This document shows, one piece after another, positions 10,803 through 23,500 of a DNA stretch of 64,000 bases (its first letter is position 1; each line of letters opens with the position of its first letter). A program made the translations under genes and the position numbers. The stretch is from Ruegeria sp. ANG-R (GTDB lineage Bacteria > Pseudomonadota > Alphaproteobacteria > Rhodobacterales > Rhodobacteraceae), in NCBI RefSeq assembly GCF_000813985.1, contig NZ_JWLJ01000001.1, forward strand, positions 1,290,453 to 1,354,452, in the 5' to 3' direction. The notes below the pieces were generated by a model, which saw only the letters and a list, made by a program, of their open reading frames with translations, searched no databases and was not told the DNA's origin.

Positions 10803-11648
10803 ATGTCATCTGACCTACACGCTCCCGGCACCGAAAATTCAGCATTAGATATTCCACCAGCGTATGTGCCTCCGCGTCCACCCCCTAAGCCGAAATTTCC
10901 CATCCTGCTAATACTTATCTGGGGTGCCCTTTTTCTGACACTGATTTTGGCGAAAGAATTCCTTTGGGACAACCAAACCTCAGGTCGGGCAGGACTAAAA
11001 TACACCAGCGGCGATATGACTTGGCAGAGTATTGATCCAACGTGGTCTGAGATGTGGGGAGAATATGCGCTCGACATGTCGGTAAACCCCGTAAGCATAA
11101 GAAATTCTTCGGATGGGACCTTCCACATCAACGGCACCATTCTTCGTTCTCTGTGCGGTTCGGTTTTGACGAAATTGCCCGATCCGCCAGAAGGCGTTTC
11201 ACGCAAAGATATTTATCGCCTCGGTTTCAGATTCTATAACGCCAATGACCAAACGCCCACGGACGTTTTTCCAGTGCAAGTTCAGGACGGTGCTTGCGTC
11301 GCATACGACGATCAAGTGATATTTGACTGGAGCTATCCAGGGGCACTAGCCGGATGGTCCCCTGTGCGCTCCGAAGGTTCAAGTAAAGAAAAGCAAATCA
11401 TCTTTTTTGGCCGAAGAGGTGACGTGAAAGTTCCTTATGATCAAATTGATCTAATGCTTGCGTGCGAAGCGCTCTTTCTGGATTCTAGCGACAAAATGCG
11501 CGAAGTTTTATCGGAGGTGAAAGAATTGGAAATCCGCGCGGTGAAGGGGGTTGTTTCCGCCGTTTTTTGGGCGGGAATTTACCAATCACAGCACTTTCAG
11601 ATAATAAACGGTAGTTGCCTCGTACCGGGCGAAATCACCGACGGTTAA
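10803..11648 (+). CDS. Hypothetical single-pass membrane protein
   Basis: A 281-residue protein with a proline-rich cytoplasmic N-terminus (residues 1-31, ending PPRPPPKPKF), one membrane helix (PILLILIWGALFLTLIL, about 33-49) and a large C-terminal domain predicted outside the membrane. That domain has a few cysteines (SLCGSV, GACVAYDD, LACEAL, GSCLVPG). I do not recognise a family. Composition is AT-richer than the flanking tyrS and mttB-like genes, so it is probably an accessory gene. It appears monocistronic, with a terminator-like hairpin at 11784-11816. Confidence 0.7.
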   Translation: MSSDLHAPGTENSALDIPPAYVPPRPPPKPKFPILLILIWGALFLTLILAKEFLWDNQTSGRAGLKYTSGDMTWQSIDPTWSEMWGEYALDMSVNPVSIRNSSDGTFHINGTILRSLCGSVLTKLPDPPEGVSRKDIYRLGFRFYNANDQTPTDVFPVQVQDGACVAYDDQVIFDWSYPGALAGWSPVRSEGSSKEKQIIFFGRRGDVKVPYDQIDLMLACEALFLDSSDKMREVLSEVKELEIRAVKGVVSAVFWAGIYQSQHFQIINGSCLVPGEITDG

Positions 11649-11783
11649 GCAAGGATTCACAGTGCTTGCCATTGAATCCTGCTAGTTGAGAGTTAGCACT
11701 AGGGACGTGTCGAATTGGCCCAGATGTATCGACTAAGAACTAGCGGTTTGTCCCGCTTCTCAGCTATCGAGTGGTGATAGTAG

Positions 11784-11816
11784 AAAAACTCACCAAGATT
11801 TTTGGGGAGTTTTTTT
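11784..11816 (+). terminator. Rho-independent terminator
   Basis: AAAAACTC (11784-11791) pairs with GAGTTTTT (11807-11814) and runs into seven T residues. It separates the orphan membrane-protein gene from the catabolic island. Confidence 0.7.
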
Positions 11817-11831
11817 GATTTGAACCTGCTG

Positions 11832-11841
11832 CTGTATACTT
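11832..11841. promoter_or_regulatory. Candidate GntR operator (CTGTATACTT)
   Basis: The core GTATAC (11834-11839) matches the centre of the TTGTATACAA-type operators of FadR-subfamily GntR repressors. A better copy lies upstream of the island's own gntR at 20770-20779. It would allow the GntR protein to control the mttB-like gene. Confidence 0.35.
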
Positions 11842-12010
11842 GGTCGCAAGACTGTCGAATGTGAATCTTCAAAGCACGAAACAACCAGCCGCCTTCGGGC
11901 AACCGTACTCCCCCTCAGAATGGCAACGTCGCATTTCGCAACAGGTTTTCGCATTCCTGCATGTGGGCCCCACCCTTTCCGTTCCACACTGAACCGGAAG
12001 GAGGCACCAT

Positions 12011-13561
12011 ATGACCAGAACTGCCACTGCCACACGTACCGGAGGGCGCTCGGCCCGTCGCGCCATGCGCACCGCACCAAACTTCGAGATGTTGCCGGGC
12101 CTGACCCGCGGCATTCCGTTATGCGAGGTTATGGACGGCGCACAGGTTGAGCGCATCGATGCAGCCTCGATGGATATTCTGGAAAACGTGGGTGTCCAGT
12201 TCCGCGACCCCATCGCGCTGGAAGACTGGAAGAAGGCCGGCGCCAAGGTCGAAGGCGAGCTCGTCTATCTGGACCGCGGTCTAGTGCGCGGGCTGATCGC
12301 GACTATCCCGTCAGATTTCACCTACCACGCGCGCGATCCGAAAAAGAATGTCCGGCTTGGCGGCAGACATTCGATCTTCGTGCCGATGACCGGCGCGCCG
12401 TTCCTGCGTGATCTGGACGATGTGCGCCGCAACCCGACGCTGGACGATCTGGCGATGTTCCACAAGCTCAGCCATATGCTGCCTGCGCTGCATTCCTCAG
12501 CGCATCACATTGTCGAGCCGTATGACCACCCAATCAGCCAGCGGCACCTACGGATCACCTATTCGTCGATGAAGCACTCAGACAAAACCTTCATGGGCAT
12601 GACCACCTCGCCTAAGAATGCCGAGGATGTCATGGAGATGTGCGCCATCCTGTTTGGCGAGGAATTCCTTGAAGATCACCCGGTCACCACAGGCAATTGC
12701 AACGGCAATTCGCCGCTGGTCTGGGATGAAACCATGCTGGGCGCAATGCGCGCATTCTGTCGTCGTAAACAACCCGTGCTGTGCTCGCCCTTCGTGCTGG
12801 GCGGGGCCAATACGCCCGCCAGCGTACCCGCTACCGTGGCGCAACTGAACGCGGAAGCACTCAGTGCGCTGGCCTATACGCAGGTAATCCGCAAGGGCGC
12901 GCCTGCGATCTACGGGCACTACCTGTCGACCGTTTCTATGAAATCCGGCGCGCCTATGGCAGGCACGCCCGAGATCAGCCTGATGAACTTTATGATCGGT
13001 CAGATGGCCCGGTATTACGAAGTGCCATGGCGCACTTCGAACACACTGGGCGGGGCAAAAACCTTTGACGCGCAGGCAGGCTATGAATCCGCGACCACTC
13101 TGCAGGCGGTGATCCATGCGGGTGCTAATTATATCTGGCACTCGGCAGGCTGGAACGAGGCCGGGATGCACTGCTCGACCGCCAAGTTCATCGTCGATGC
13201 GGAACAATGTGCCATGGCCTATCGCATGGCCGAGGGTCCAAAGTGGCACGATTTTGATCAGGCGGTTTCTGCTGTTGGCGATATCGGCCCCGGCGGGCAT
13301 TATCTGGGGCACCCCCACACGCAGGACAATTTTCAGAACGCGTTCTTCATGCCCGACATGTTCGACAATAACTCGATCGAGCAATGGCAGGCCGAGGGCT
13401 GTGTCGAAATCACCGAACGCGCCCTCAAACACGCCCGCAAGCTGCTGGCCGAATATCAGGAGCCGACGCTGGACACCGCCAAGAACGAGGAACTGTTGGA
13501 CTACATCGCCCGACGCGAACGAGAAATCCCGGCAGCGGATGAGCTGAATCAGACCTATTGA
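12011..13561 (+). CDS. MttB-superfamily (trimethylamine methyltransferase family) protein
   Basis: A 516-residue member of the trimethylamine-corrinoid methyltransferase superfamily (COG5598). Recognisable stretches are the N-terminal LPGLTRGIPLCEVMDGAQVERI and ILENVGVQFRDP, then GNCNGNSPLVWDETMLGAM and the C-terminal FFMPDMFDNNSIEQWQAEG. There is no in-frame amber codon, so it is a non-pyrrolysine member. Characterised ones (MtgB, MtpB and relatives) demethylate quaternary amines such as glycine betaine and proline betaine. A strong ribosome binding site precedes the ATG. It is followed by a terminator and then an hpbD-like gene, which points to a betaine substrate. No corrinoid-binding partner protein is encoded nearby, so the methyl acceptor is unknown. 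Confidence 0.9.
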   Translation: MTRTATATRTGGRSARRAMRTAPNFEMLPGLTRGIPLCEVMDGAQVERIDAASMDILENVGVQFRDPIALEDWKKAGAKVEGELVYLDRGLVRGLIATIPSDFTYHARDPKKNVRLGGRHSIFVPMTGAPFLRDLDDVRRNPTLDDLAMFHKLSHMLPALHSSAHHIVEPYDHPISQRHLRITYSSMKHSDKTFMGMTTSPKNAEDVMEMCAILFGEEFLEDHPVTTGNCNGNSPLVWDETMLGAMRAFCRRKQPVLCSPFVLGGANTPASVPATVAQLNAEALSALAYTQVIRKGAPAIYGHYLSTVSMKSGAPMAGTPEISLMNFMIGQMARYYEVPWRTSNTLGGAKTFDAQAGYESATTLQAVIHAGANYIWHSAGWNEAGMHCSTAKFIVDAEQCAMAYRMAEGPKWHDFDQAVSAVGDIGPGGHYLGHPHTQDNFQNAFFMPDMFDNNSIEQWQAEGCVEITERALKHARKLLAEYQEPTLDTAKNEELLDYIARREREIPAADELNQTY

Positions 13562-13581
13562 GATACTCTCCCCTGAAACTC

Positions 13582-13610
13582 ACCCGCCCGAATCACCGGG
13601 CGGGTCTTTT
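13582..13610 (+). terminator. Rho-independent terminator between mttB-like gene and hpbD
   Basis: ACCCGCCCG (13582-13590) and CGGGCGGGT (13597-13605) form a perfect 9-bp stem with a 6-base loop, followed by CTTTT. It should make the mttB-like gene largely monocistronic, or lower expression of the following genes. Confidence 0.85.
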
Positions 13611-13639
13611 CCATTCAGAGACATCGGGAAACGCACATA

Positions 13640-14743
13640 GTGAAAATCGCGGAAATCCACATCTACAGCCACGATCTGCCTGTCAAAAACGGCCCCTATA
13701 CGATGGCCCGTGCTCAGGTATGGGCGCTGGATACCACTCTGGTCAAACTGGTCGGCGACAATGGCCTCGTGGGATGGGGCGAGACCTGCCCGGTTGGTCC
13801 CACCTACGCCGAAGCGCACGCCACCGGTGCCCGCGCCGCGCTGGCGCAGATGGCCCCCGATCTGATCGGGGCCGAGGTGTCGCCGCTGGGTCTGCATCGG
13901 CGCATGGACAGCCTGCTGAACGGTCACAACTATGCCAAGGCCGCGATTGATATCGCAGCGCATGATCTGCTGGGCAAACACCACGGGGTCAGCGTGTCGA
14001 CACTGCTGGGCGGTGCTGTAACGGACAATGTGCCCTCGTATTACGCAACCGGCGTTGGTGCGCCGGACGACATCGCGCGATTGGCGGCGGACAAACGGGC
14101 CGAAGGTTACCCTCGCCTGCAGATCAAGGTCGGCGGTCGCCCGGTCGAATTGGACATCGAAACCATCCGCAAGGTTTGGGAAGTTATCGGCGGTTCGGAC
14201 ATGCGCCTTGCGGTGGATGGCAACCGTGGCTGGACAACCCGCGACGCGCTGCGCGTCAGCCGCGAATGTCCCGACATTCCGTTCATCATGGAGCAACCCT
14301 GCAACACGATGGAAGATCTGCAAAAGATCCGGGCACAGATTGGCCACGCGATCTACATGGACGAAAACAGCACCAGTCTGAACACCGTCATCACCGCCGC
14401 AGGGACCGGGCTGGTGGACGGGTTTGGCATGAAAGTTACGCGTATCGGAGGCCTGCACCCGATGCGCACCTTCCGCGATCTATGCGAGGCTCGTAACCTG
14501 CCCCATACCTGCGACGACAGCTGGGGCGGCGACATCATCGCTGCGGCCTGTACCCATATTGGTGCGACGGTAAAGCCCGAGTTGCTCGAAGGCGTCTGGC
14601 TGGCGGCCCCCTATATCGAAGGCAACTATGATCCGAAAAACGGTATCCGGATTGAGGGCGGCCATATCCGCGTTCCCACCGGACCGGGGCTTGGCATTAC
14701 GCCCGACGAAAGCCGATTTGGTGCGCCGGTCGCATCGTTCTGA
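13640..14743 (+). CDS. hpbD: HpbD-like 4-hydroxyproline betaine 2-epimerase / proline betaine racemase
   Basis: A 367-residue enolase-superfamily enzyme of the muconate-lactonising/racemase branch. Catalytic Lys163 (RLQIKVGG) and Lys265 ([11 protein letters not shown]) sit on opposite sides of the site as expected for 1,1-proton transfer. Metal ligands are Asp193 (AVDGNRGW), Glu219 (EQP) and the acidic pair at 241-242 (MDEN). The sequence closely resembles the Pelagibaca bermudensis HpbD as I remember it (MKIAEIH start, [20 protein letters not shown], [11 protein letters not shown]); no alignment was run. HpbD epimerises trans-4-hydroxy-L-proline betaine and racemises proline betaine, the entry step of osmolyte catabolism. 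A ribosome binding site is weak. It is followed closely by two SDR genes. Confidence 0.87.
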
Positions 14744-14755
14744 TTGGAGGCGATC

Positions 14756-15487
14756 ATGGATTTCCACGGAAAAACAGCGCTGGTGACCGGTGCCGCCGGG
14801 GGTATTGGAGCCTCTCTCGTACAGCGCCTGCGCGCCGCAGGCGCGCGTGTGGCGGTTGCAGACCGTTCTGTCGACGGGATCGAAGCCGAGGCACACTTGC
14901 CCGGCGACCTGCTGGACCCAGCCTATGCCGACGCGTTGCCCTCGAATGCGGCAGAAGCGCTGAGCGGTCTCGATATCGTCGTCAACAACGCAGGCGTGAT
15001 CACGCGCGGGGCCGTGACCGCAACCTCGGACGAGGATTGGGCCTTGTCGCTGGGCGTGAATGTCGAGGCGCCGTTCCGCATCTGCCGCGCCGCCATTCCG
15101 ATCATGGCTGAGGCAGGCGGCGGCTCGATCGTGAACACCGCGTCCTGCTGGGGCCTCCGGCCCGGGCCGGATCATGCGCTTTACTGCATGACAAAAGCGG
15201 CCATTGCCAGCCTGACGCAATGCATGGGGCAGGATCACGCCCATCAGGGCATCCGCATCAACGCCGTCTGCCCGAACGAGGTGAACACGCCGATGCTGCG
15301 CTCGGGCTTTGCCAAACGCGGGTTTGATCCTGATACTGCCGTTGCCGAACTTGGAAAATCAGTGCCGCTGGGTCGGATCGCCGAGCCTGCGGATATCGCG
15401 GACGTGATCCTGTTTTTGGCCTCGGACGCCGCACGTTACATGTGCGGTGCACTGGTCGAAGTTAACGGAGGCAAGCCGGTCCAATGA
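14756..15487 (+). CDS. Short-chain dehydrogenase/reductase (first of pair)
   Basis: A 243-residue classical SDR. The NAD(P)-binding TGAAGGIG, the NNAG motif (VVNNAGVI) and the catalytic Ser plus YxxxK (YCMTK) are all present. The start is the ATG at 14756, placed 5 bases after a TTGGAGG ribosome binding site; the longer frame adds four residues. It overlaps the next SDR gene by four bases (ATGA), so the two are translationally coupled. The substrate is unknown; the position after hpbD suggests oxidation of a hydroxyl on the betaine or a degradation product. Confidence 0.92.
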   Translation: MDFHGKTALVTGAAGGIGASLVQRLRAAGARVAVADRSVDGIEAEAHLPGDLLDPAYADALPSNAAEALSGLDIVVNNAGVITRGAVTATSDEDWALSLGVNVEAPFRICRAAIPIMAEAGGGSIVNTASCWGLRPGPDHALYCMTKAAIASLTQCMGQDHAHQGIRINAVCPNEVNTPMLRSGFAKRGFDPDTAVAELGKSVPLGRIAEPADIADVILFLASDAARYMCGALVEVNGGKPVQ

Positions 15488-16218
15488 ACAGATTCGCCGG
15501 AAAAACCGCCCTTGTGACCGGTGGGCGCAGCGGTATCGGACGCGCCATCGCGCAACGCCTGCGCGACGAAGGGGCCAATGTTTTCACCGCGCAGCGTGGA
15601 ACGGATGACGAGTTTCCCTCCTTCCCTGCGGATTTCTCTGACCCGAACAGCCCCGCAGAGATCATCCAGCAGGCCATTGCTCAAGCTGGCCAGCTGGATG
15701 TGCTGATCAACAACGCGGGCATGATGCAGGAAGCATCGGTCGACGACATGTCTCTGGCGGATTGGCAGCGCAATCTGGCCGTCAACCTGACCGCCCCTTT
15801 CCTGCTGATCCAGGCCGCTTTGCCGCATCTGCGCAGAACCAGAGGCAGCATCGTCAACATCGGGTCGGTCGAAGGCTTGGGCAGCAATCCCGGCCATGCC
15901 GCCTATTGCGCTTCAAAAGCCGGGTTGCATGGGCTGACCCGCGCGGTTGCCGTTGACCACGGCGCGGAAGGCATCCGCTGTAATGCGGTGGCTCCGGGCT
16001 GGATCGACACCGATCTCAACCTCGATTTCATCGAAAGCATGGACGACCCGGGCGCCTTCCGCCGGGACATTGCCCGTATTCACCCGGTAGGCCGCACGGG
16101 CGATCCCAAAGAGGTCGCCGCGCTGGTCGCCTTCCTCGCTGCCGAGGAATCAGGCTTTGTCACTGGTCAGATCTATACGGTCGATGGCGGGCGGATGGCG
16201 AAGCTCAGCCTGCCATAA
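15484..16218 (+). CDS. Short-chain dehydrogenase/reductase (second of pair)
   Basis: A 244-residue classical SDR with TGGRSGIG cofactor loop, INNAGMM, the catalytic Ser of NIGSVEG and YCASK. It overlaps the preceding SDR by ATGA. The protein is only moderately like its neighbour, so this is not a recent tandem duplication. It ends the plus-strand arm of the island, convergent with the FAD oxidoreductase gene. Substrate unknown. Confidence 0.92.
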   Translation: MNRFAGKTALVTGGRSGIGRAIAQRLRDEGANVFTAQRGTDDEFPSFPADFSDPNSPAEIIQQAIAQAGQLDVLINNAGMMQEASVDDMSLADWQRNLAVNLTAPFLLIQAALPHLRRTRGSIVNIGSVEGLGSNPGHAAYCASKAGLHGLTRAVAVDHGAEGIRCNAVAPGWIDTDLNLDFIESMDDPGAFRRDIARIHPVGRTGDPKEVAALVAFLAAEESGFVTGQIYTVDGGRMAKLSLP

Positions 16219-16235
16219 ATAGCCCTAAGGCTATT
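16218..16235. terminator. Short hairpin over convergent stop codons
   Basis: AATAGCC (16218-16224) and GGCTATT (16229-16235) form a perfect 7-bp stem with a CTAA loop, spanning the end of the SDR gene and the stop of the FAD gene. No T-run, so only a weak bidirectional terminator. Confidence 0.4.
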
Positions 16236-17571
16236 CGGCACCGGATCGCCACTCTTTCCAGCGCAGATACGCATTGGCACCCACCGATGCGAAAGGCTCG
16301 GGCGGCAATCGCGGTGGCATTGGCTGCGCCAGGAAATGATCTGCGATTGGTGATGCCTTCTGCAGCACAAGCTCCGCCGCGCCCATTCCCTGCAAGGTAC
16401 CTCGGGCAATGCCCAGTCCATTCTGGCAACAGGCGGCATAAACCCCCTGCTCGATCTCACCAAACGCGGCCGAACCATTGCGGCTGAGGCACAGCATCCC
16501 GGCCCAGCGATGTTCCATCCGCACATCCGGCAGGTTCGGAAACCGTTCCCGAAACTTGCGGTCATGCACCCTGCCCGCCCTTTTCAAATGGCGGTCGCTG
16601 CTGTGGATCGAAGGATGAAAGCTGGAACAGGTTCGGATCAGAATACGATTCCCACAGCCGCCGGAAATCCGCCGGACCGAGGTGCCCATCGGGTCCGCAG
16701 GCGTCACCGACCAGCGCGGTTGCCCGCCCAGCGTCGCGATCTGTGCTGCATTCAACGGTTCCGTTATCGACGCGTAAAGACAGATGTGCATCAGACGGCG
16801 CTGATAAAAGCCAAAGCTTTCGATGTGCCCGTTATTGGCCAAGACAATGCGTCCGGTCGACACTCTGGCTTTTTTGGTTTCGACCTCCCAGCCGCTGCCT
16901 TTCTTGCTGAAACCGGTCACGGGTGAATTCTCGAATACCCCGACCTGTCCTGCCAGATGCGCGGACAGGGCCCGGACGTAGGCGGCAGGCTGTATCATCA
17001 CCGTTCCCGGCGCGAACAGGCCCGAGGTGTAATGCGGACTGCCCGTCAGCGCCTGCATCTGGTGTGCGTCATACTGCTCACAAGGTTCTCCGAGCTGCGC
17101 CAGATGTGCTGCGTAATCTGCGTTGTGCCGGTCCCCGTCTGGTGTCGCCGCAGCATTGATCTTGCCGCAGGGATCGAACATCTCGGGCGATAGCTCACAT
17201 TGCGCCGCAACCTCTGTCGCAAAGGCAATCGCCTGCCGGTTCAGCGCAATACTGGCCCGATCCGCCTCCAACCCGTCGCTCGCATAATTGTCCGAGGCCA
17301 GATCATGCGGCAGATCGATCATAAAACCCGAATTGCGCCCGGCGGACCCTTCGGCAAATCGCCCGGCCTCCAACACCACGACCTTCAGCCCCGGATCAAG
17401 CTGATGCAGCCGCCGGGCCGCCGACAACCCGGCAAACCCACCGCCGATGATGGTCACATCTGCGGTCTGGTTCTGTTCAAGTCGAGGCAGGTCTTGCTGC
17501 GGCGGCAAGATGGCATTCCACCCCGCCGCGCCGGTCTGCCGGGGCAGACGTTTGGCGGTATAGACCGTCAA
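16231..17571 (-). CDS. FAD-dependent amine/amino acid oxidoreductase (DAO family)
   Basis: A 446-residue DAO-superfamily flavoprotein. VTIIGGGFAGLSAARRL (GxGxxG at residues 43-48) binds the ADP part of FAD; GSAGRNSGFMID and the C-terminal YAACCQNGLGIARGTLQG resemble gamma-glutamylputrescine oxidase (PuuB) and related enzymes that oxidise amines or N-methyl amino acids to imines or demethylated products. It overlaps the aldehyde dehydrogenase gene by four bases, in the order GntR-DapA family-ALDH-FAD. In a betaine route it could oxidise N-methylproline or D-/cis-hydroxyproline. PuuB-like polyamine degradation is the alternative. Confidence 0.88.
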   Translation of the reverse strand: MTVYTAKRLPRQTGAAGWNAILPPQQDLPRLEQNQTADVTIIGGGFAGLSAARRLHQLDPGLKVVVLEAGRFAEGSAGRNSGFMIDLPHDLASDNYASDGLEADRASIALNRQAIAFATEVAAQCELSPEMFDPCGKINAAATPDGDRHNADYAAHLAQLGEPCEQYDAHQMQALTGSPHYTSGLFAPGTVMIQPAAYVRALSAHLAGQVGVFENSPVTGFSKKGSGWEVETKKARVSTGRIVLANNGHIESFGFYQRRLMHICLYASITEPLNAAQIATLGGQPRWSVTPADPMGTSVRRISGGCGNRILIRTCSSFHPSIHSSDRHLKRAGRVHDRKFRERFPNLPDVRMEHRWAGMLCLSRNGSAAFGEIEQGVYAACCQNGLGIARGTLQGMGAAELVLQKASPIADHFLAQPMPPRLPPEPFASVGANAYLRWKEWRSGAE

Positions 17572-19064
17572 TCCACCGCCTCGTCTTCGTCGTCGGCCAG
17601 ATCAATCCAGATGGTTTTCAGCTGGGTATACTGATCATGCGCGTGGACCGAGTTATCACGTCCGCCAAACCCGGACTGCTTGTAACCGCCAAAAGGCGTG
17701 GTGATGTCGCCTTCACCGAAGCTGTTGACCGTGACGGTCCCTGCCCGGATCGCCCGCGCACCCCGAATGGCGCGTTTGGCGTTGGCCGTAAAGATCGAGG
17801 CACACAGGCCATACTCGGTGTCATTGGCGATGCTGATCGCCTCGTCAAAGCCCGAGACTTCGATCACCGAAAGGACCGGGCCAAAGATTTCCTCGCGCGC
17901 CAAAGTGGCGTCGTTTCCGGGCACTTCGACCACCGTGGCCTCGACAAAGCCCTTGTCCGCCTTGCCACCGATCAGCACGTTTTCGGCCTGTTCCAGATAT
18001 CCGCAGACCTTGATGTAATGCCCCTCGCTGACCAGCGCGCCCATGCGGGTTTCAGGGTCCAGCGGATCGCCGACATTCCAATGTTTGGCGTGATGGGCAA
18101 TACGCTCCAACAGTTCCGCCTTCACGTCCTTATGCACGATCAACCGCGACGAGGCCGAGCAATTCTCGCCCATGTTCCAGAACGCGCCATTGACGATATG
18201 CGCCGCCACGCGGTCCAGGTTTTCCGCATCGTCCATCACAATGGCCGGGTTCTTGCCGCCCATCTCAAGCACCACTTCCTTGGCGTTGCTTTCGGCGGAA
18301 TAGCTCAGGAATTTCTTGCCCGTCATGGTCGAGCCGGTGAACGAAACCATGTCGATATCCATATGCCGCCCGATGGGTTCACCGACCTCGGCCCCGCCCC
18401 CCGGTACGACGTTCAGTACACCGCGCGGCAAACCTGCCTCTGCAGCCAATTCCGCCACCTTCAGCGCCGTCAACGATGTCTCGGTTGCCGGTTTAATCAC
18501 CACGGAACAACCTGCCGCCAGCGCAGGCCCGATCTTCCATGCCAACATCAGCAGAGGGAAGTTCCACGGCAATACCAGCCCAACCACACCGATGGGTTCA
18601 CGCACCACCATGGCGATATGGTCATCACTGGCCGGTGAGACCTGATCGTAAATCTTGTCGATCGCCTCGGCGTGCCATTTCAGGCAGTGGATCGTCTCGG
18701 GCACATCCACGGTTTCGCAATCATAAATCGTCTTGCCACTATCGATGCTCTCCATCACCGCCAGTTCCCGCGCGTTGCGGGTAATCAGCTTGCACAGGCG
18801 GATCAGAACGTCCTTGCGATCCGACGGGTGCATCTTTGACCAACGCCCATCGTCAAACGCCTCACGCGCCTTTTCGACGGCGAAATCCACATCCTCGGCG
18901 CCACAGGCCGCGATGCTGGTCAGCACCGCCCCTGTGGCCGGATTGACAGTCTCGAACACCTGTCCCGAGTTTGCCGGGCGATAGCCGCCATCAATGAACG
19001 CACCCGTCGGCAAATCCAGATGCGCGGCGATGGATTCGTATTCGTCTTTCGTCAGCAAGCTCAT
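17568..19064 (-). CDS. Aldehyde dehydrogenase (PuuC/semialdehyde type)
   Basis: A 498-residue NAD(P)-dependent ALDH of normal length. Catalytic Cys302 (GENCSASSR), general-base Glu267 (LEMGGKNP), the oxyanion Asn in LPWNFP and the cofactor loop FTGSTMTGK are all present. Family resemblance is to PuuC and related broad-range semialdehyde dehydrogenases. Between the DapA-family and FAD genes, a role as 2-oxoglutarate semialdehyde dehydrogenase of hydroxyproline breakdown is attractive, but the specificity is inferred only from context. It overlaps the FAD gene by ATGA and starts 3 bases after the DapA-family stop. Confidence 0.92.
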   Translation of the reverse strand: MSLLTKDEYESIAAHLDLPTGAFIDGGYRPANSGQVFETVNPATGAVLTSIAACGAEDVDFAVEKAREAFDDGRWSKMHPSDRKDVLIRLCKLITRNARELAVMESIDSGKTIYDCETVDVPETIHCLKWHAEAIDKIYDQVSPASDDHIAMVVREPIGVVGLVLPWNFPLLMLAWKIGPALAAGCSVVIKPATETSLTALKVAELAAEAGLPRGVLNVVPGGGAEVGEPIGRHMDIDMVSFTGSTMTGKKFLSYSAESNAKEVVLEMGGKNPAIVMDDAENLDRVAAHIVNGAFWNMGENCSASSRLIVHKDVKAELLERIAHHAKHWNVGDPLDPETRMGALVSEGHYIKVCGYLEQAENVLIGGKADKGFVEATVVEVPGNDATLAREEIFGPVLSVIEVSGFDEAISIANDTEYGLCASIFTANAKRAIRGARAIRAGTVTVNSFGEGDITTPFGGYKQSGFGGRDNSVHAHDQYTQLKTIWIDLADDEDEAVD

Positions 19065-19067
19065 GCC

Positions 19068-19985
19068 TCAATCCTCCGCCACAATATCTGCGATTTTGCG
19101 TTTCAGAACGCGCGTCACCTGTTCCAGCGCGCGTTTGTCATCCTTGTTCAGGCCTTTGAGCGGAGGCCGCACAGGACCCGCATCAATCCCATTCATGGTC
19201 ACCCCATGTTTGATCGTCTGGATGAATTTGCCCCCCTGCTCCAGCACCCGCATCAGCGGCATCAGCGCGCTCATGATGCGGCGGCCTTTGGCAAAGTCGC
19301 CCTCGATCACGCAGGCCTGATACAGCGCCACATGCTCGGCGGGCAGAAAGTTCGATCCGCCGCAGACCCAGAACGGTGCACCCCAGGCGAAGAACTCCAG
19401 CGCCTGATCGTCCATGCCGCAGCCCAGCTGAATATGCGGATAATCCCGCGCCAACAGGTGTACCCGGTTGATATCGCCTGAGCTTTCCTTGATGCCGCAG
19501 AAATTCCGGCTGCGGCCAACGCGGTCCAGGAACTCCTCGCCCATCATCGTGCCGGTCCGGTGCGGATAGTTGTACAGCATCACCGGCAGATCAGCCGCCT
19601 TGTCGATCGCCAGAGCGTTCAGCGCATTCTCACGGTCTGTCGGCACCGAATACGGCGGGCTGGCCAACAGGATCGAATCCGCGCCCAGTTCCCGCGCGCC
19701 CGAGGCCAGCGCAACGGAATCGTCGGTCAGCATCGCGCCCGTGCCAACGACCAACGGCACCCGCCCTTTCAAACGTTCATGAGTAAACCGCGCCAGTTCC
19801 AGTCGTTCCTCAACGGTTTGGGCATAATTCTCACCCGTCGACCCGCCCGAGATCAGCCCGTGCACGCCCTGTTCGACCAGATAGTCGATCACCTCGGCCA
19901 ACGCGTCCCAGTTCACGCTGCCATCCGCCAGATACGGCGTCACCACCGGCGTATAGATACCCTCAAATCTGAAGATCGGAGTCAT
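19068..19985 (-). CDS. Dihydrodipicolinate synthase-family (DapA/NAL) enzyme
   Basis: A 305-residue (beta/alpha)8 Schiff-base enzyme. Lys166 (FCGIKESSGD) would form the imine; GGSTGE (47-52) and Tyr138/Tyr140 (LYNYPHRTG) complete the active site. The family includes DapA, sialate lyase, KdgD and the 1-pyrroline-4-hydroxy-2-carboxylate deaminase of hydroxyproline breakdown (HypD/LhpC). It is not a clear biosynthetic DapA, and its position with hpbD, FAD oxidase and ALDH favours the deaminase role. The gene starts 7 bases downstream of gntR and lies in the same operon. Confidence 0.9.
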   Translation of the reverse strand: MTPIFRFEGIYTPVVTPYLADGSVNWDALAEVIDYLVEQGVHGLISGGSTGENYAQTVEERLELARFTHERLKGRVPLVVGTGAMLTDDSVALASGARELGADSILLASPPYSVPTDRENALNALAIDKAADLPVMLYNYPHRTGTMMGEEFLDRVGRSRNFCGIKESSGDINRVHLLARDYPHIQLGCGMDDQALEFFAWGAPFWVCGGSNFLPAEHVALYQACVIEGDFAKGRRIMSALMPLMRVLEQGGKFIQTIKHGVTMNGIDAGPVRPPLKGLNKDDKRALEQVTRVLKRKIADIVAED

Positions 19986-19992
19986 GTGTCCC

Positions 19993-20703
19993 TCATGCAG
20001 ATGTCTTGCCGGGGACCTGCCCCAGCGGAAAATCCAACCCCTCAGGCATCACGAACAGCTCGATCTGATCGCGTGACAGGGTCCAGTGGTCGTCAGCAAG
20101 CTGCGCAGCAGCCGCTTCATCGCCCGCCTCGATGGCGGCGATGATGGCGTCGTGCTGATGACTGGCTTGCGACAGGTTCTCGGTCATCTGTACGGTCTGC
20201 GGGCGATAAAATGTCATCCCGATGCGCGCATGATCGATCAGCAGCCGGTTGAATGAAGGGGATAAATAGACATTCCCCGCCATCTCACCGGTCACCTCGT
20301 GAAACCGCGTGTTAGCCAGTGTCCGCTCCTCGGCCGAGCCCGTACGCAGGGCCTGTCGGAACACCTCCTGCGCCGCTTTCAGCTGATCAATCTGATCGGA
20401 CGTCGCATTGGCCGCGGCCAGCCGCAGCACCGCGCCATAGACCATTGGCGCGACCAGAAAGAAATCCCGCAACGTGGTATGAGACATCTCGGATACCCGT
20501 GCCCCGCGATGGGTCCGCAGGTCCAAGTACCCCTCACCGGCCAACTGCCGGAACACTTCGCGCAACGGCGTGCGCGACAACCCAAAGGCCTGCGACAACT
20601 GCGCCTCGTCCAGATCCTCTCCGGGACGCAGACGCAGGGTCAGAACCGACATCTTCAAATGCTCGGCCAACGCCTCTTTTGGTGATCTGCCCTCGTCCCT
20701 CAT
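19993..20703 (-). CDS. GntR-family regulator (FadR/FCD type)
   Basis: A 236-residue regulator with an N-terminal winged helix (DEAQLSQAFGLSRTPLREVFRQLAGEGYL, about residues 31-60) and a C-terminal all-helical FCD ligand domain with candidate metal-binding residues in RFHEVTGEMAG and SHQHDAII. FCD regulators usually repress a catabolic operon and are released by its substrate or an intermediate. It is the first gene of the minus-strand operon, and a TTGTATACAG palindrome lies 66 bases upstream, the best candidate for its own operator. Confidence 0.92.
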   Translation of the reverse strand: MRDEGRSPKEALAEHLKMSVLTLRLRPGEDLDEAQLSQAFGLSRTPLREVFRQLAGEGYLDLRTHRGARVSEMSHTTLRDFFLVAPMVYGAVLRLAAANATSDQIDQLKAAQEVFRQALRTGSAEERTLANTRFHEVTGEMAGNVYLSPSFNRLLIDHARIGMTFYRPQTVQMTENLSQASHQHDAIIAAIEAGDEAAAAQLADDHWTLSRDQIELFVMPEGLDFPLGQVPGKTSA

Positions 20704-20769
20704 TCGCTCCCTTTCATCGCGTTCCTGCGAATCGATACCTCGTTCTCTCGTACCGCATAAAAATACATG

Positions 20770-20779
20770 TTGTATACAG
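20770..20779. promoter_or_regulatory. Candidate GntR operator (TTGTATACAG)
   Basis: A near-perfect palindrome of the TTGTATACAA kind known for FadR-subfamily GntR proteins, in the divergent region between gntR and the GlxA-type gene, so it could regulate both. A weaker match precedes the mttB-like gene (11832-11841). Confidence 0.45.
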
Positions 20780-20836
20780 ATAGTTTTCGTGCAGCATGAC
20801 CGAAGCCAACAGCACTCCCTGATTCAGGTCCCATCG

Positions 20837-21787
20837 ATGAGCCAAACACAGCACTTCGCTTTCATACTGGTCGAGGAATTCTCGCATCTCGCCTTCTCTT
20901 GCGCGGTGGAGCCGTTGAGGATCGCAAATTTGCTGGCCGAGGATGACCTCTACAGGTGGTCCTTCCTGTCCGAGCACGCTGAGCAGGCAGTCTGTTCAAA
21001 CGGATCGGTCACTCTGGTGCATGGCGGCCTGAGTTCCGTCCCGAAATGCGACCAACTGTTTGTTCTGTCAGGTATAAACATGCGCAACCACGTCTCGCGC
21101 CCGTTGCTCGCCACCTTGCGCCGGGAACGTGCGCGGGGCACGAATATCGGCGCCTTGTGTTCCGGTGCATGGCTGCTGGCCGAGGCCGGGTTTCTGGACG
21201 GGATGCAAGCCGCAATACACTGGGAATATCACGATTCCTTTATGGAGGCTTTTCCTGAAACAAATCTCGTCCGCAGCGTCTTTGTCGCCGACGAAAAACA
21301 CATGACCGCCTCGGGTGGTACCGCGACCGCAGATCTGATGCTGCACCTGATCGAACGCGACCATGGCCACGATCTGTCAGTCGCTGTGGCCGATCAGATG
21401 GTCTATAACGCCGTCCGCAACGCCACCGCCGATCAGCGCGTCTCGCTGCAATCGCGCAACGGGATGCGGAACACGCATCTGGCCAAGGCGATCCACATCA
21501 TGACCGACAATATCCAAAGCCCGCTGTCGCCCTCGGTCATTGCCAGCGATATCGGCATCTCAACCCGGCAACTGGAGCGTCTGTTTGGGAAATTCCTCAA
21601 CACCTCGCCCAAGAAATACTTCATGGAGCTACGGCTGGATCGCGCCCGCAACCTGCTGCTGCAGACCGAATCCTCCGTGACCGAAGTCGCCTTTGCCTGC
21701 GGCTTCGAAAGCGCCGGTCACTTCTCGCGCGTATACCGGGCTGCCTTTGGTGTCACGCCGATGCAGCAGCGCAGCAGGCTCGATTGA
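20837..21787 (+). CDS. GlxA-type AraC-family regulator (GATase1-like plus AraC HTH)
   Basis: A 316-residue protein with an N-terminal class I glutamine-amidotransferase-like domain (residues about 5-170, with GALCSGAWLLAEAG at the nucleophile elbow) and a C-terminal AraC DNA-binding domain (two HTH motifs, SDIGISTRQLERLFGKFL and VAFACGFESAGHFSRVYRAAFG). This architecture is shared with the Pseudomonas regulators of glycine betaine (GbdR), carnitine (CdhR) and dimethylglycine (SouR) catabolism, which fits the neighbouring betaine genes. It is divergent from gntR. The start is the ATG at 20837 (MSQTQHFAF); the longer frame upstream is not protein-like. Confidence 0.92.
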   Translation: MSQTQHFAFILVEEFSHLAFSCAVEPLRIANLLAEDDLYRWSFLSEHAEQAVCSNGSVTLVHGGLSSVPKCDQLFVLSGINMRNHVSRPLLATLRRERARGTNIGALCSGAWLLAEAGFLDGMQAAIHWEYHDSFMEAFPETNLVRSVFVADEKHMTASGGTATADLMLHLIERDHGHDLSVAVADQMVYNAVRNATADQRVSLQSRNGMRNTHLAKAIHIMTDNIQSPLSPSVIASDIGISTRQLERLFGKFLNTSPKKYFMELRLDRARNLLLQTESSVTEVAFACGFESAGHFSRVYRAAFGVTPMQQRSRLD

Positions 21788-21825
21788 TCAAAGCTGTGAC
21801 TGGACAGGAGGCCATGGTTGGGATT

Positions 21826-21845
21826 ATCTGAACAAGTGTTCAGAT
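21826..21845. promoter_or_regulatory. Palindrome ATCTGAAC-AAGT-GTTCAGAT
   Basis: Perfect 8-bp arms around four bases, ending 15 bases before the start codon of the SDR gene at 21861. The TGAAC-N4-GTTCA core is like operators of TetR-family regulators. It could also be an mRNA hairpin just before the ribosome binding site. Confidence 0.55.
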
Positions 21846-21860
21846 CAGGAAGGACCCGCC

Positions 21861-22616
21861 ATGCAACTCTCAACCACAGCTGCGGTGATCACCGGCGGAG
21901 CCTCCGGCCTGGGTGAGGCCACTGCCCGCCACTTTGCCGAAAACGGCGCGCAGGTCACCATCCTTGATCGTGACGCCGAGCGTGGCCCACAAGTCGCCGC
22001 CGAAATCGGAGGGCATTTCGCGCAAACTGATGTGACGGATGAGGCCTCGGTCGCTGCAGCGATTGCACATGCGATGGACAAGATGGGTCGCATCACCGCC
22101 GCGGTGAACTGCGCAGGGATCGCGATTGGGGCCAAAACCGTCGGCAAAGACGGCCCGCACCCCCTGGGCGCGTTCCAACGTACCATCGACATCAATCTGG
22201 TCGGCTCTTTCAACGTCTCACGTCTTGCCGCTGTCGAGATGGCCAAGAACGATCCCGAACCGGATGGTGCGCGTGGCGTGATTATCAACACCGCCTCCAT
22301 CGCCGCCTTTGACGGGCAAAAGGGTCAGGCGGCATACGCGGCCTCGAAAGGCGGCGTGGTTGGCATGACCCTACCCATGGCGCGCGACTTGGCCTCGACC
22401 GGTATCCGCGTGATGGCCATCGCACCGGGCATCTTCATGACCCCGATGCTGGCTGGTCTGCCCGAAGAGGTGCAGCAACAGCTTGCGGCGGACGTCCCTA
22501 ACCCCGCCCGCCTCGGCGACCCGCGCGAATACGGCCGTCTGGCTGGGTTCATCGTCGAGATGGGTTACCTGAACGGAGAGGTCATCCGCATCGACGGTGC
22601 CCTGCGGATGCGCTAA
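21861..22616 (+). CDS. SDR, 3-hydroxyacyl-CoA dehydrogenase type 2-like
   Basis: A 251-residue SDR. The cofactor loop TGGASGLG, NCAG, catalytic Ser (NTASIAAFDGQ) and YAASK are present. The ASIAAFDGQKGQAAYAASKGGVVGMTLPMARDLA-type region (cited here only by its position, about residues 143-175) and the C-terminal GYLNGEVIRIDGALRMR resemble the HSD10/3-hydroxy-2-methylbutyryl-CoA dehydrogenase branch, which oxidises short-chain 3-hydroxyacyl-CoA. GGAAGGA precedes the ATG. It follows the GlxA-type gene by 73 bases and may or may not belong to the betaine island. Confidence 0.9.
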   Translation: MQLSTTAAVITGGASGLGEATARHFAENGAQVTILDRDAERGPQVAAEIGGHFAQTDVTDEASVAAAIAHAMDKMGRITAAVNCAGIAIGAKTVGKDGPHPLGAFQRTIDINLVGSFNVSRLAAVEMAKNDPEPDGARGVIINTASIAAFDGQKGQAAYAASKGGVVGMTLPMARDLASTGIRVMAIAPGIFMTPMLAGLPEEVQQQLAADVPNPARLGDPREYGRLAGFIVEMGYLNGEVIRIDGALRMR

Positions 22617-22626
22617 ACCGGGTTTC

Positions 22627-23181
22627 ATGACCGAGCGGCAGAAAATGGCGGCAGGCGAGTGGTATTGCTGCCTCGACCCCGAACTGGAAGTGCTTCGCAT
22701 GAAAGCACGCCGCGCGGTTCATGCCCACAACACCTGCCCACCCGATGACAGAGGGTCAATAGCGCCCGAATTGGCGGCGCTCTTTGCGGGGATCGGGCAA
22801 GACTGCTATGTCGAGGCCCCGTTCCACTGCGCCTATGGGATGAACCTGTCGCTGGGCGACCGGGTGTATCTGAACGCTGGCTGTGTCATTCTCGACACCG
22901 CGCCTGTTTGCATCGGCAGCGACTCGATGCTTGGGCCCACGGTGCAGATTTACTGTGCACAACACGCCAAGGACCCAACCCTGCGCGCCCAGGGTCTGGA
23001 AATCGACCACCCGGTGACAATCGGAGAAAATGTCTGGATCGGCGGCGGAGCGATCATCATGCCCGGCGTCACCATCGGAGACCGCGCCATTGTCGGCGCG
23101 GGTAGCGTTGTTACCAAAGACGTCCTGCCCGGAGAGACAGTTGTCGGCAACCCCGCCCGGTCTATCCGGCCTGACCCATAG
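22627..23181 (+). CDS. Maltose/sugar O-acetyltransferase family protein
   Basis: A 184-residue left-handed beta-helix acetyltransferase of the Maa/NodL/LacA group. MTERQKMAAGEWYCCLDPEL is the Mac domain at the N-terminus; hexapeptide repeats run from about residue 60 (NLSLGDRVYLNAGCVILD) to the end (VTIGENVWIGGGAIIMPGVTIGDRAIVGAGSVVTKDV). The catalytic His in CAQHAKD is present. It would transfer acetyl from acetyl-CoA to a sugar hydroxyl. The ATG at 22627 lies 10 bases after the SDR gene; its 3' end overlaps the convergent HxlR gene by 20 bases. Confidence 0.92.
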   Translation: MTERQKMAAGEWYCCLDPELEVLRMKARRAVHAHNTCPPDDRGSIAPELAALFAGIGQDCYVEAPFHCAYGMNLSLGDRVYLNAGCVILDTAPVCIGSDSMLGPTVQIYCAQHAKDPTLRAQGLEIDHPVTIGENVWIGGGAIIMPGVTIGDRAIVGAGSVVTKDVLPGETVVGNPARSIRPDP

Positions 23182-23500
23182 CCCGATCCCGACCCCAATC
23201 CGCCAGTGCCTCGATCACCGGGCGCAACGCTTGACCCTTATCGGTTAGGCTGTATTCCACTCTGGGTGGCACCTCGGCAAATATTTTACGATGCACGATC
23301 CCGTCCGCCTCAAGCTCTCGCAACTGCTTGGTCAGGCTGCGTTGAGTCACAGTGCCCAATGCGCGCGATAGGGCGTTGAAACGCATGGTTCCACCCAGAA
23401 GATGATAGATCACCAGCCCTTTCCATTTGCCCGAGATCTGTTCCAGCCCGGCTTCAACCGGGCAGCCCCCGCTACAGTCATATCTGTCGAACCGATCCAT
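23162..23500 (-). CDS. HxlR-family transcriptional regulator
   Basis: A 112-residue winged-helix protein with CPVEAGLEQISGKWKGLVIYHL, the signature HxlR beginning with the conserved Cys, followed by RFNALSRALGTVTQRSLTKQLRELEADGIV. I chose the ATG at 23500 (MDRFDRYDC) because AGGAGG sits five bases upstream of it; an ATG at 23515 is in frame. Members often sense reactive electrophiles or redox change through the conserved Cys. It is divergent from a small quinol-monooxygenase-like gene, the likely target. Confidence 0.92.
   Translation of the reverse strand: MDRFDRYDCSGGCPVEAGLEQISGKWKGLVIYHLLGGTMRFNALSRALGTVTQRSLTKQLRELEADGIVHRKIFAEVPPRVEYSLTDKGQALRPVIEALADWGRDRAMGQAG

Follow-up and report, generated by a model that had tools for sequence, protein, structure and literature searches.

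A gene island of Ruegeria sp. ANG-R joining MttB and HpbD: probable cobalamin-dependent catabolism of proline-type betaines

Results

An island of two gene runs in Ruegeria sp. ANG-R

We analysed a 64,000-nucleotide stretch of the Ruegeria sp. ANG-R genome (hereafter the window, to which gene coordinates without a contig label refer), and within it an island that joins a gene of the MttB superfamily of cobalamin-dependent methyltransferases to a gene for the betaine epimerase HpbD. The source genome comprises 4.68 Mb on 41 contigs, and the closest named relatives of the island belong to Ruegeria halocynthiae and R. conchae (HpbD 92-93% and MttB 96-97% identical); because its kin are Ruegeria, we take the host to be aerobic. 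All genes named in a first-pass annotation of this DNA were recovered as open reading frames at their assigned positions (Table 1). The forward run consists of MttB, HpbD and two short-chain dehydrogenases (SDR1 and SDR2), and the reverse run of a GntR regulator, a DapA-family protein, an aldehyde dehydrogenase (ALDH) and a flavin adenine dinucleotide (FAD) oxidoreductase, the last three of which we call the trio; a divergent GlxA/AraC-family gene follows. Since the intergenic gaps within both runs measure only -4 to 78 bases, 12011-20703 looks like two convergent operons, and the grouping is not due to chance, because the same set recurs, rearranged, in other genera.

Table 1 Features of the island and the evidence for their assignment
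Feature	Position	Strand or place	Basis
MttB superfamily, non-pyrrolysine cobalamin-dependent methyltransferase	12011-13561	+	PF06253, 710 bits over 500/500 positions
HpbD (4-hydroxyproline betaine 2-epimerase / proline betaine racemase)	13640-14743	+	GTG start; 4e8g, 614 bits
SDR1, NAD(H)-type short-chain dehydrogenase (predicted)	14756-15487	+	PF13561; 3uxy, 417 bits
SDR2, NADP(H)-type short-chain dehydrogenase (predicted)	15484-16218	+	PF13561
DAO-family FAD oxidoreductase	16231-17571	-	PF01266; predicted fold
ALDH, PuuC/BADH/KauB-like	17568-19064	-	NCBIfam; PDB 7uyy, 4lih, KauB 6b4r
DapA-family class I aldolase, not HypD	19068-19985	-	Residues; fold
GntR/FCD regulator	19993-20703	-	PF00392, PF07729; adjoins DapA in same run
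Candidate GntR operator TTGTATACAG	20770-20779	between gntR and glxA	Exact TTGTATACA at 20770
GlxA/AraC-family regulator, GbdR-like	20837-21787	+	NCBIfam GbdR, 313.8 bits (cut-off 480)

MttB is linked to HpbD across genomes

The linkage between MttB and HpbD was surveyed from both sides. From the HpbD side, 80 of 212 confirmed loci were kept; these are best matches, so the sample is weighted to Ruegeria and Leisingera, and some contigs are short. At thresholds of at least 65% identity for the island's MttB clade and at least 45% for the hpb-type Rieske oxygenase, 51 of the 80 loci hold this MttB clade, so the pairing first noticed in the window is conserved. An hpb-type Rieske gene occurs in three loci (one of them also with MttB), a fourth locus (L043) reached 43%, and 27 of the 80 have neither gene. 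A marker for betaine ATP-binding cassette (ABC) transport was found in 17 of the 51 MttB-linked loci.

A family-wide survey then covered 198 genomes from 197 genera, with HpbD called at E 1e-120, MttB at E 1e-200, and scoring limited to the 7 to 10 top candidates of each genome. An MttB orthologue was present in 52 genomes and HpbD in 12, with both in 11 of these 12; MttB was found in 41 of the 186 HpbD-negative genomes (Fisher p 1.7e-6, uncorrected for relatedness). At the cut-off used, with up to 7 candidates scored in each genome, the island's clade gave a single match per genome in all 52.

The surroundings of MttB were analysed in 49 of the 51 genomes other than that of the window (G102 and G078 were left out). 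The complete trio is present in 41 of these 49 loci, HpbD (at least 45% identity) in 7, SDR1 with SDR2 in 16 and an HpbA-type gene in 6. Among the 41 loci with the trio, HpbD and the SDRs are both missing from 25 and both present in 6; the other 10 have SDR genes alone (SDR2 by itself in one), and none has HpbD alone. One locus of the HpbD sample (L087) is an exception, combining HpbD with the trio but lacking the SDRs. The unit is wider than the first pass recognised: its usual core consists of MttB with DapA, ALDH and FAD genes, and HpbD and the SDR pair are add-ons. Of the eight loci lacking the full trio, three carry HpbA-type genes (L117, L135, L143), one HpbD and the SDRs (L136), one DapA, ALDH, GntR and SDR1 with no FAD match over threshold (L139), and one GntR only (L134). 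On the MttB tree, HpbD and the SDR pair join on several branches, with 10 and 14 label changes, respectively, on the best tree and fewer forced by starred branches.

HpbA-type genes (N-methylproline demethylase) lie within about 3 kb of MttB in five of their six loci and about 7 kb away in L132; three of these six lack the DapA/ALDH/FAD set. Within five genes on each side of the 41 core loci, as delimited by a simple gene caller, the other recurrent neighbours were an ABC ATPase (6/41) and the HpbA-type gene (4/41), and no further family recurred in four or more. The source genome has an HpbA orthologue of its own (69%; C12:60575-62599). Close to this gene (C12, about 60.5-65.4 kb) are an S15 X-Pro dipeptidyl-peptidase-like gene, a second open reading frame that resembles it at its start, and a dipeptide-type ABC transporter, and in another genus (L117) an S15 gene, HpbA and the MttB orthologue occur together; this neighbourhood perhaps serves the use of peptides capped by methylated proline.

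By sequence the epimerase is HpbD, and MttB stands where a Rieske demethylase stands elsewhere

The HpbD-like protein has the enolase-superfamily domains PF13378 and PF02746 and, besides its best structural match, scores 581 bits against both 2pmq and 4h2h, with identities of 71.9% to 4E8G and about 67.9% to 2pmq. We take 4e8g and 2pmq/4h2h to be the Paracoccus and Pelagibaca HpbD structures, in agreement with the 'hpbD' annotation of a P. pantotrophus gene 96% identical to 4E8G. Both catalytic lysines noted in the first pass are indeed present (Lys163 and Lys265, in a protein 72% identical to the Paracoccus 4E8G), as are Asp193, Glu218 and Asp241, at what we presume to be the positions of the superfamily metal ligands. 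By sequence, the product of 13640-14743 is a real HpbD, with predicted epimerase activity.

Work by Zhao in 2013 and Kumar in 2014, cited in PMC4113996, is said to have described an HpbD pathway for (hydroxy)proline betaine with a Rieske demethylase in Paracoccus and Pelagibaca. The island resembles that pathway in its HpbD, in the HpbA orthologue of its genome and in the betaine ABC genes of homologous islands; it differs in having MttB instead of the Rieske demethylase, together with the SDR pair and a DapA-ALDH-FAD set that is not of the HypD type. No match to the hpb-type Rieske was found in the window at 1e-5, and the five Rieske alpha genes of the source genome are at most 34% identical to that of P. 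pantotrophus. A counterpart exists in Paracoccus sp. MA, where a Rieske gene (61% to P. pantotrophus) and a reductase gene (64%) precede GntR, GlxA, HpbD (77%), an unannotated SDR1 (78% over 167 residues) and SDR2 (81%), with no MttB match in the stretch. The earlier proposal that MttB occupies the place of the Rieske demethylase is thereby supported. Against the glycine betaine monooxygenase model, whose cut-off is 670, the Rieske protein of Paracoccus sp. MA reaches 488.5.

An HpbD tree built by a quick method from 105 rows (including 3 outgroup rows and 2 references) contained 59 MttB-linked, 5 Rieske-linked, 35 unlinked rows and 1 linked to both. The MttB label changes 17 times, and starred branches force at least 7 of these changes; the Rieske label, on 5 rows, needs 5. 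This fits a partner exchanged or lost repeatedly, though rows with neither can also come from short contigs. The rows nearest to 4E8G after the Rieske-linked P. pantotrophus HpbD are two MttB-linked Cereibacter sphaeroides copies (one plasmid, seen twice). A zinc alcohol dehydrogenase gene (ADHfam) recurs next to HpbD in L111, L079, L150 and L147, the first three of which also hold a second HpbD-like enolase-superfamily gene (32-34%).

Homologous islands also bear on the substrate. Plasmid pB of C. sphaeroides 2.4.1 carries the full set with ProV, ProW and ProX between GntR and the GlxA orthologue (63%), which lies downstream of ProX; this betaine transporter inside a homologous island supports the betaine substrate first proposed from the window. 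The same set with ProVWX is found on pSymA of Sinorhizobium meliloti AK57 (L098), where the ALDH, FAD, MttB, HpbD and GlxA genes are broken into frames by decay or sequencing errors. In Halomonas (L080) and Larsenimonas (L086), DapA, FAD, ALDH and an hpb-type reductase lie beside HpbD and the SDR pair, and an HpbA gene (70%) is also present; neither stretch yielded a Rieske oxygenase, and the transporter between these genes, tested in L080 only, is a BCCT. The trio also occurs without MttB. In P. alcaliphilus it neighbours a betaine ABC transporter and a gene annotated as 4-hydroxyproline epimerase; in Peteryoungia its neighbours are HpbA (74%), genes of the proline racemase family and again a betaine ABC transporter. 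A rhizobial cluster combines it with putA, genes for formaldehyde oxidation and HpbA (71% over the portion covered), and on a Burkholderia plasmid it lies next to glyA and a betaine ABC transporter.

MttB would draw on corrinoid and folate partners encoded elsewhere

The MttB gene is full-length, without an in-frame TAG or any other in-frame stop, and its product scores 487 bits against PDB 4yyc. Seven other full-length MttB paralogues are encoded in the source genome (eight in all), the nearest being 43% identical to that of the island; a ninth family member (C41:52668-53123) is a fragment with one TAG inside. The genome has a single PF02607 protein, a 234-residue MtgC (C1:1166464-1167165) that scores below the NCBIfam MtgC cut-offs, which presumably derive from anaerobes. 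A DUF1638 gene lies directly downstream, and R. pomeroyi has MtgC as SPO2160 and DUF1638 as SPO2162, according to portions of PMC12478193. Of two PF00809 matches, one is an MtgD candidate (C1:1105606-1106295) whose matched part passes the cut-off of PRK07535 (methyltetrahydrofolate:corrinoid methyltransferase), and the other is probably dihydropteroate synthase. There is no sign of MetH in the source genome, because a classical MetH would give a second PF02607 match and only one was found. MtgC is present in 50 of the 52 MttB-positive genomes, yet also in 184 of the 198 overall, so that its presence there is necessary without being discriminating. By analogy with R. pomeroyi, MtgC and the MtgD candidate would serve the island MttB.

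MtpB of Eubacterium limosum is an MttB-superfamily enzyme acting on proline betaine; the island MttB belongs to the same superfamily, and the host of MtpB, unlike Ruegeria, is an anaerobic acetogen. MtpB is also named in the examined portions of PMC12478193, which describe the MttB-type glycine betaine demethylase system MtgBCD of Ruegeria pomeroyi, count up to seven MttB-family genes per roseobacter genome, and suggest other methylated substrates for further paralogues while assigning none. An MttB demethylase in an aerobe, as seen in the first pass, is therefore not new in itself, having been published there for glycine betaine, and the use that this roseobacter makes of MttB is a variant of MtgBCD. 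The two systems share a PF06253 protein, MtgC, an MtgD (here a candidate) and no sign of MetH; in contrast to MtgB, the island MttB is linked to proline-type betaine genes.

By sequence the trio departs from the known hydroxyproline route

The first-pass annotation had the DapA-family protein act as HypD/LhpC. This identification was rejected: the protein is 24-25% identical to HypD, lacks the HypD residues, and the source genome has a true HypD orthologue outside the island (72%). Lys166, Tyr138, Tyr112, Thr50, Arg143 and Ser168 are present in 91 of 91 rows, a set that takes in the window and counts some genomes twice, and in 10 of 10 further trio members; at the positions of Thr50, Tyr112, Arg143 and Ser168, the HypD of S. 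meliloti and that of the source genome both have Met, Leu, Tyr and Phe. The S. meliloti hydroxyproline operon, whose genes we take to be named HypR-HypD-HypH-HypO, likewise unites GntR, DapA-family, ALDH and DAO-family genes; it differs in that the window DapA is 24-27% identical and that the source genome has its own HypD elsewhere. Across 48 kb of the S. meliloti Hyp region, tblastn at 1e-8 gave no match of more than 100 residues to the window ALDH or FAD proteins.

In portions of PMC3188589, the serine two residues after the Schiff-base lysine of human 4-hydroxy-2-oxoglutarate aldolase (HOGA) is modelled on the substrate 4-hydroxyl, and DHDPS has Ala there. The window DapA shares with HOGA the lysine, the tyrosine, the G-X-X-G-E loop and this serine (Ser168); it differs in having Thr50, in 91 of 91 rows, for Asn78 (the second X of the loop) and Arg for Asn173. 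Ser168 alone is not diagnostic, because a second, unlike S. meliloti DapA-family protein also has it. The predicted fold is closest to DHDPS, and Foldseek returned generic DHDPS relatives that do not separate aldolase from deaminase. From these residues we propose that DapA may be a 4-hydroxy-2-oxo-acid retro-aldolase.

The ALDH had been assigned as a 2-oxoglutarate semialdehyde dehydrogenase, a call that is not supported: it scores 513.6 bits with PuuC and 436 with BADH, as against 356 with the 2-oxoglutarate semialdehyde model (NF042993, cut-off 770). Among the 25 shown of 44 NCBIfam matches it is below the cut-off of every family, PuuC and BADH included. For the FAD protein, the nearest matches of the predicted fold (mean pLDDT 81.6) are glycine oxidase, dimethylglycine dehydrogenase and sarcosine oxidase beta (TM-score about 0.61-0.68, normalised by query length; 14-20% identity), and we propose the protein as an oxidase of an N-methylated ring amino acid. 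These features of the trio fit a retro-aldol finish, without proving it. By sequence, the ring-breaking half of the island is not the textbook hydroxyproline route, and the cleavage may differ in a way that is perhaps new.

Residues of the SDR pair are conserved across the rows compared: Asp36 (at the end of the second strand), Ser130, Tyr143 and Lys147 of SDR1 are each found in 76 of 76 rows, as are Gln37, Arg38, Ser128 and Tyr141 of SDR2 (Lys145 in 75 of 76). An Asp at the end of the second strand usually marks NAD(H)-dependent SDRs, and Gln-Arg there NADP(H)-dependent ones; under this rule, Asp36 and Gln37-Arg38 fit an NAD(H)-type SDR1 and an NADP(H)-type SDR2. The solved structure closest to SDR1 is named only as an SDR. 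We propose that SDR1 would oxidise the ring 4-hydroxyl and SDR2 reduce the product to the other 4-epimer.

Regulators, transport and neighbouring genes

The GbdR-like regulator first suggested is supported: GbdR is the best NCBIfam match of the GlxA/AraC gene, though below its cut-off, and this regulator may sense the betaine. The candidate operator, an exact TTGTATACA between gntR and glxA, belongs to a motif set of three 8-base words searched up to 300 bases upstream of a gene or in its first 60 bases. Of 84 loci, 36 have the set at gntR, as do 15 of 36 when one locus per genus is sampled, compared with 46 of 4200 random 360-base windows; upstream of the GlxA gene it occurs in 18 of 48; it is absent from more than half of the gntR genes, and within the window alone the count of near-matches is not above chance. 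GntR probably represses the DapA operon at TTGTATACA. The set was found upstream of hpbD in 0 of 51 loci, and a shared GntR operator before mttB was ruled out (1 of 83 loci).

A tblastn search of the window with ProV, ProW, ProX, two further binding proteins and one BCCT confirmed that none of these betaine transporters is visible there; other kinds of transporter were not searched. The only similarity was to an ABC ATPase at 24.4-25.7 kb, in an open reading frame that reads as ABC-F type. A ProX relative (45%) is encoded distant from the island, at C41:73962-74882. An Rfam scan of 11000-23500 gave no cobalamin or other known riboswitch at gathering score. GlxA is followed, at 21855-23181, by genes for a third SDR and an acetyltransferase-like protein; out of the 80 HpbD loci, only L015 and L016 have that SDR as their best marker match.

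Discussion

The island is genuine, conserved and coherent in function. We judge it reasonably probable that it serves the cobalamin-dependent catabolism of proline-type betaines, with 4-hydroxyproline betaine the likeliest substrate; gene identity, linkage, partner genes, conserved residues and an enriched motif are shown by the sequences, and substrate and reactions are inferred. The substrate class is supported by independent neighbours. This reading draws on the homology and catalytic lysines of HpbD; on the presence of MttB in 11 of 12 HpbD-positive but 41 of 186 HpbD-negative genomes; on HpbA-type genes in 6 of 49 MttB loci and the HpbA orthologue of the genome; on ProVWX within the C. 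sphaeroides 2.4.1 island; on the Rieske and reductase genes that replace MttB before HpbD-SDR-SDR in Paracoccus sp. MA; on the proximity, in the HpbD tree, of the Rieske-linked P. pantotrophus copy to 4E8G with the MttB-linked C. sphaeroides copies next; on the trio standing elsewhere near 4-hydroxyproline epimerase, HpbA-like, putA, glyA and betaine ABC genes; and on a single MtgC, an MtgD candidate over cut-off and no sign of MetH.

Under this reading, MttB would move one N-methyl group of the betaine onto the genome's shared corrinoid protein MtgC, from which MtgD, as in the R. pomeroyi system, would hand it to tetrahydrofolate. HpbD would interconvert the C2 epimers of the betaine, and SDR1 and SDR2 would probably invert C4 via a 4-oxo intermediate. 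The FAD enzyme would then oxidise the N-methylated ring, and the DapA-family enzyme and ALDH would finish the carbon chain. For this last part, less certain than the rest, we prefer a retro-aldol cleavage of a 4-hydroxy-2-oxo acid to pyruvate and an aminoaldehyde, which ALDH would convert to sarcosine or glycine; the invariant Ser168, at the place of the HOGA serine, argues for it. Of the complete MttB-based (hydroxy)proline betaine route first put forward, HpbD, MttB at the Rieske position and a betaine substrate are supported, and the HypD and semialdehyde steps are not. Nor is completeness: the genes for the corrinoid and folate partners lie outside the island, and HpbD, an optional component, does not begin the unit.

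Several observations weigh against the reading. At the cut-off used, 41 of the 52 MttB-positive genomes lack HpbD, so HpbD by itself cannot define what every member of the MttB clade acts on. Both HpbD and the SDRs are absent from 25 of the 41 core loci, and at two of the 49 MttB loci (L105, L115) every expected neighbour is missing. A test restricted to independent pairs on the MttB tree gave no significant association of SDRs with HpbD (median p 0.25), and loci labelled 'core plus SDR' cluster no more than shuffles do. MtgB (2qne/9yce), the nearest characterised betaine enzyme among solved structures, scores 344 bits against the window MttB. One locus, in Rhodobacter kunshanensis (L090), holds both Rieske and MttB genes; its cluster comprises an hpb-type Rieske/reductase pair and MttB together with HpbD, SDRs, the trio, ProVW and a gene of the proline racemase family. 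Plasmids of Acinetobacter and Klebsiella (L177, L178) carry DapA and ALDH of this type (56-62%) beside a GntR gene, plus an FAD oxidoreductase that reaches 35% in Acinetobacter and, though annotated as such, stays under 35% in Klebsiella. The 17.5 kb examined contains no annotated betaine gene, so that the DapA-ALDH substrate need not always be a betaine. The Klebsiella set lies near IS26-family elements. Finally, Kumar 2014 is reported in portions of PMC11337228 to deal with how C. sphaeroides degrades proline betaine, and it may already be relevant to the present locus.

For the ring-breaking half, two readings were weighed. It is possible, though less likely than not, that the island encodes an unrecorded aerobic route for hydroxyproline betaine: B12-dependent demethylation, HpbD at C2 and the SDR pair at C4 funnelling all stereoisomers to one, a sarcosine-oxidase-like ring opening, and a DapA aldolase yielding pyruvate and methylaminoacetaldehyde, the latter oxidised to sarcosine. 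The alternative, which we regard as about equally doubtful, is that DapA is a pyrroline-4-hydroxy-2-carboxylate deaminase, the FAD protein a cis-4-hydroxy-D-proline dehydrogenase and ALDH a 2-oxoglutarate semialdehyde dehydrogenase, as non-orthologous counterparts of HypD, HypO and HypH that take betaine-derived hydroxyproline to 2-oxoglutarate. The known 4-hydroxyproline route does use the same superfamily trio of DAAO, DHDPS and ALDH, as set out in portions of PMC4113996; the trio adjoins 4-hydroxyproline epimerase or proline racemase-family genes in some genomes; and 45 of the 52 MttB-positive genomes lack a HypD orthologue, a further point against our preferred reading, since the trio could be a HypD-type route there. 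Against a deaminase stand the low identity of DapA to HypD, its four invariant residues that differ from those of HypD, the better scores of ALDH with the PuuC and betaine-aldehyde models, and the HypD (71-73%) already present in seven of the 52 genomes, that of the window among them.

It is unlikely that the core of MttB and trio acts on a different methylated amine, with HpbD and the SDR pair forming a separate cassette that shares only regulation or neighbourhood. The many core loci without the add-ons and the rarity of HpbD (12 of 198 genomes) relative to MttB (52 of 198) would suit such a cassette, but several branches of the MttB tree show HpbD and the SDR pair joining MttB, MttB also lies near HpbA-type genes, and the trio adjoins 4-hydroxyproline epimerase. 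That MttB is a further glycine betaine methyltransferase of the MtgBCD type with unrelated neighbours is quite improbable: MtgC and an MtgD candidate are at hand in the genome, but the seven other full-length paralogues are at most 43% identical to it, and the clade, matched once per genome in all 52 within the candidates scored, has its own set of neighbours.

In the open-licence literature, we found no paper joining HpbD with proline betaine, or trimethylamine methyltransferase with mandelate racemase; among the matches listed for hydroxyproline betaine none mentions MttB; a search for MttB and proline betaine in Alphaproteobacteria returned only PMC12478193; and no such retro-aldol or aminoacetaldehyde catabolism of hydroxyproline in bacteria appeared, by title and abstract, among the matches listed.

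If the unrecorded route is true, all carbon would enter pyruvate, glycine or folate one-carbon metabolism, bypassing 2-oxoglutarate; the aldolase, should that reading hold, would represent a second way of breaking the hydroxyproline skeleton. The copy in C. sphaeroides 2.4.1 makes the proposal testable in a standard laboratory strain. Most roseobacter MttB proteins are without a proven substrate; the recurrent link to HpbD, HpbA-type genes and betaine transporters gives one clade a testable one, and suggests a non-homologous swap in which a B12 enzyme and an oxygenase stand in for each other at one step of the pathway.

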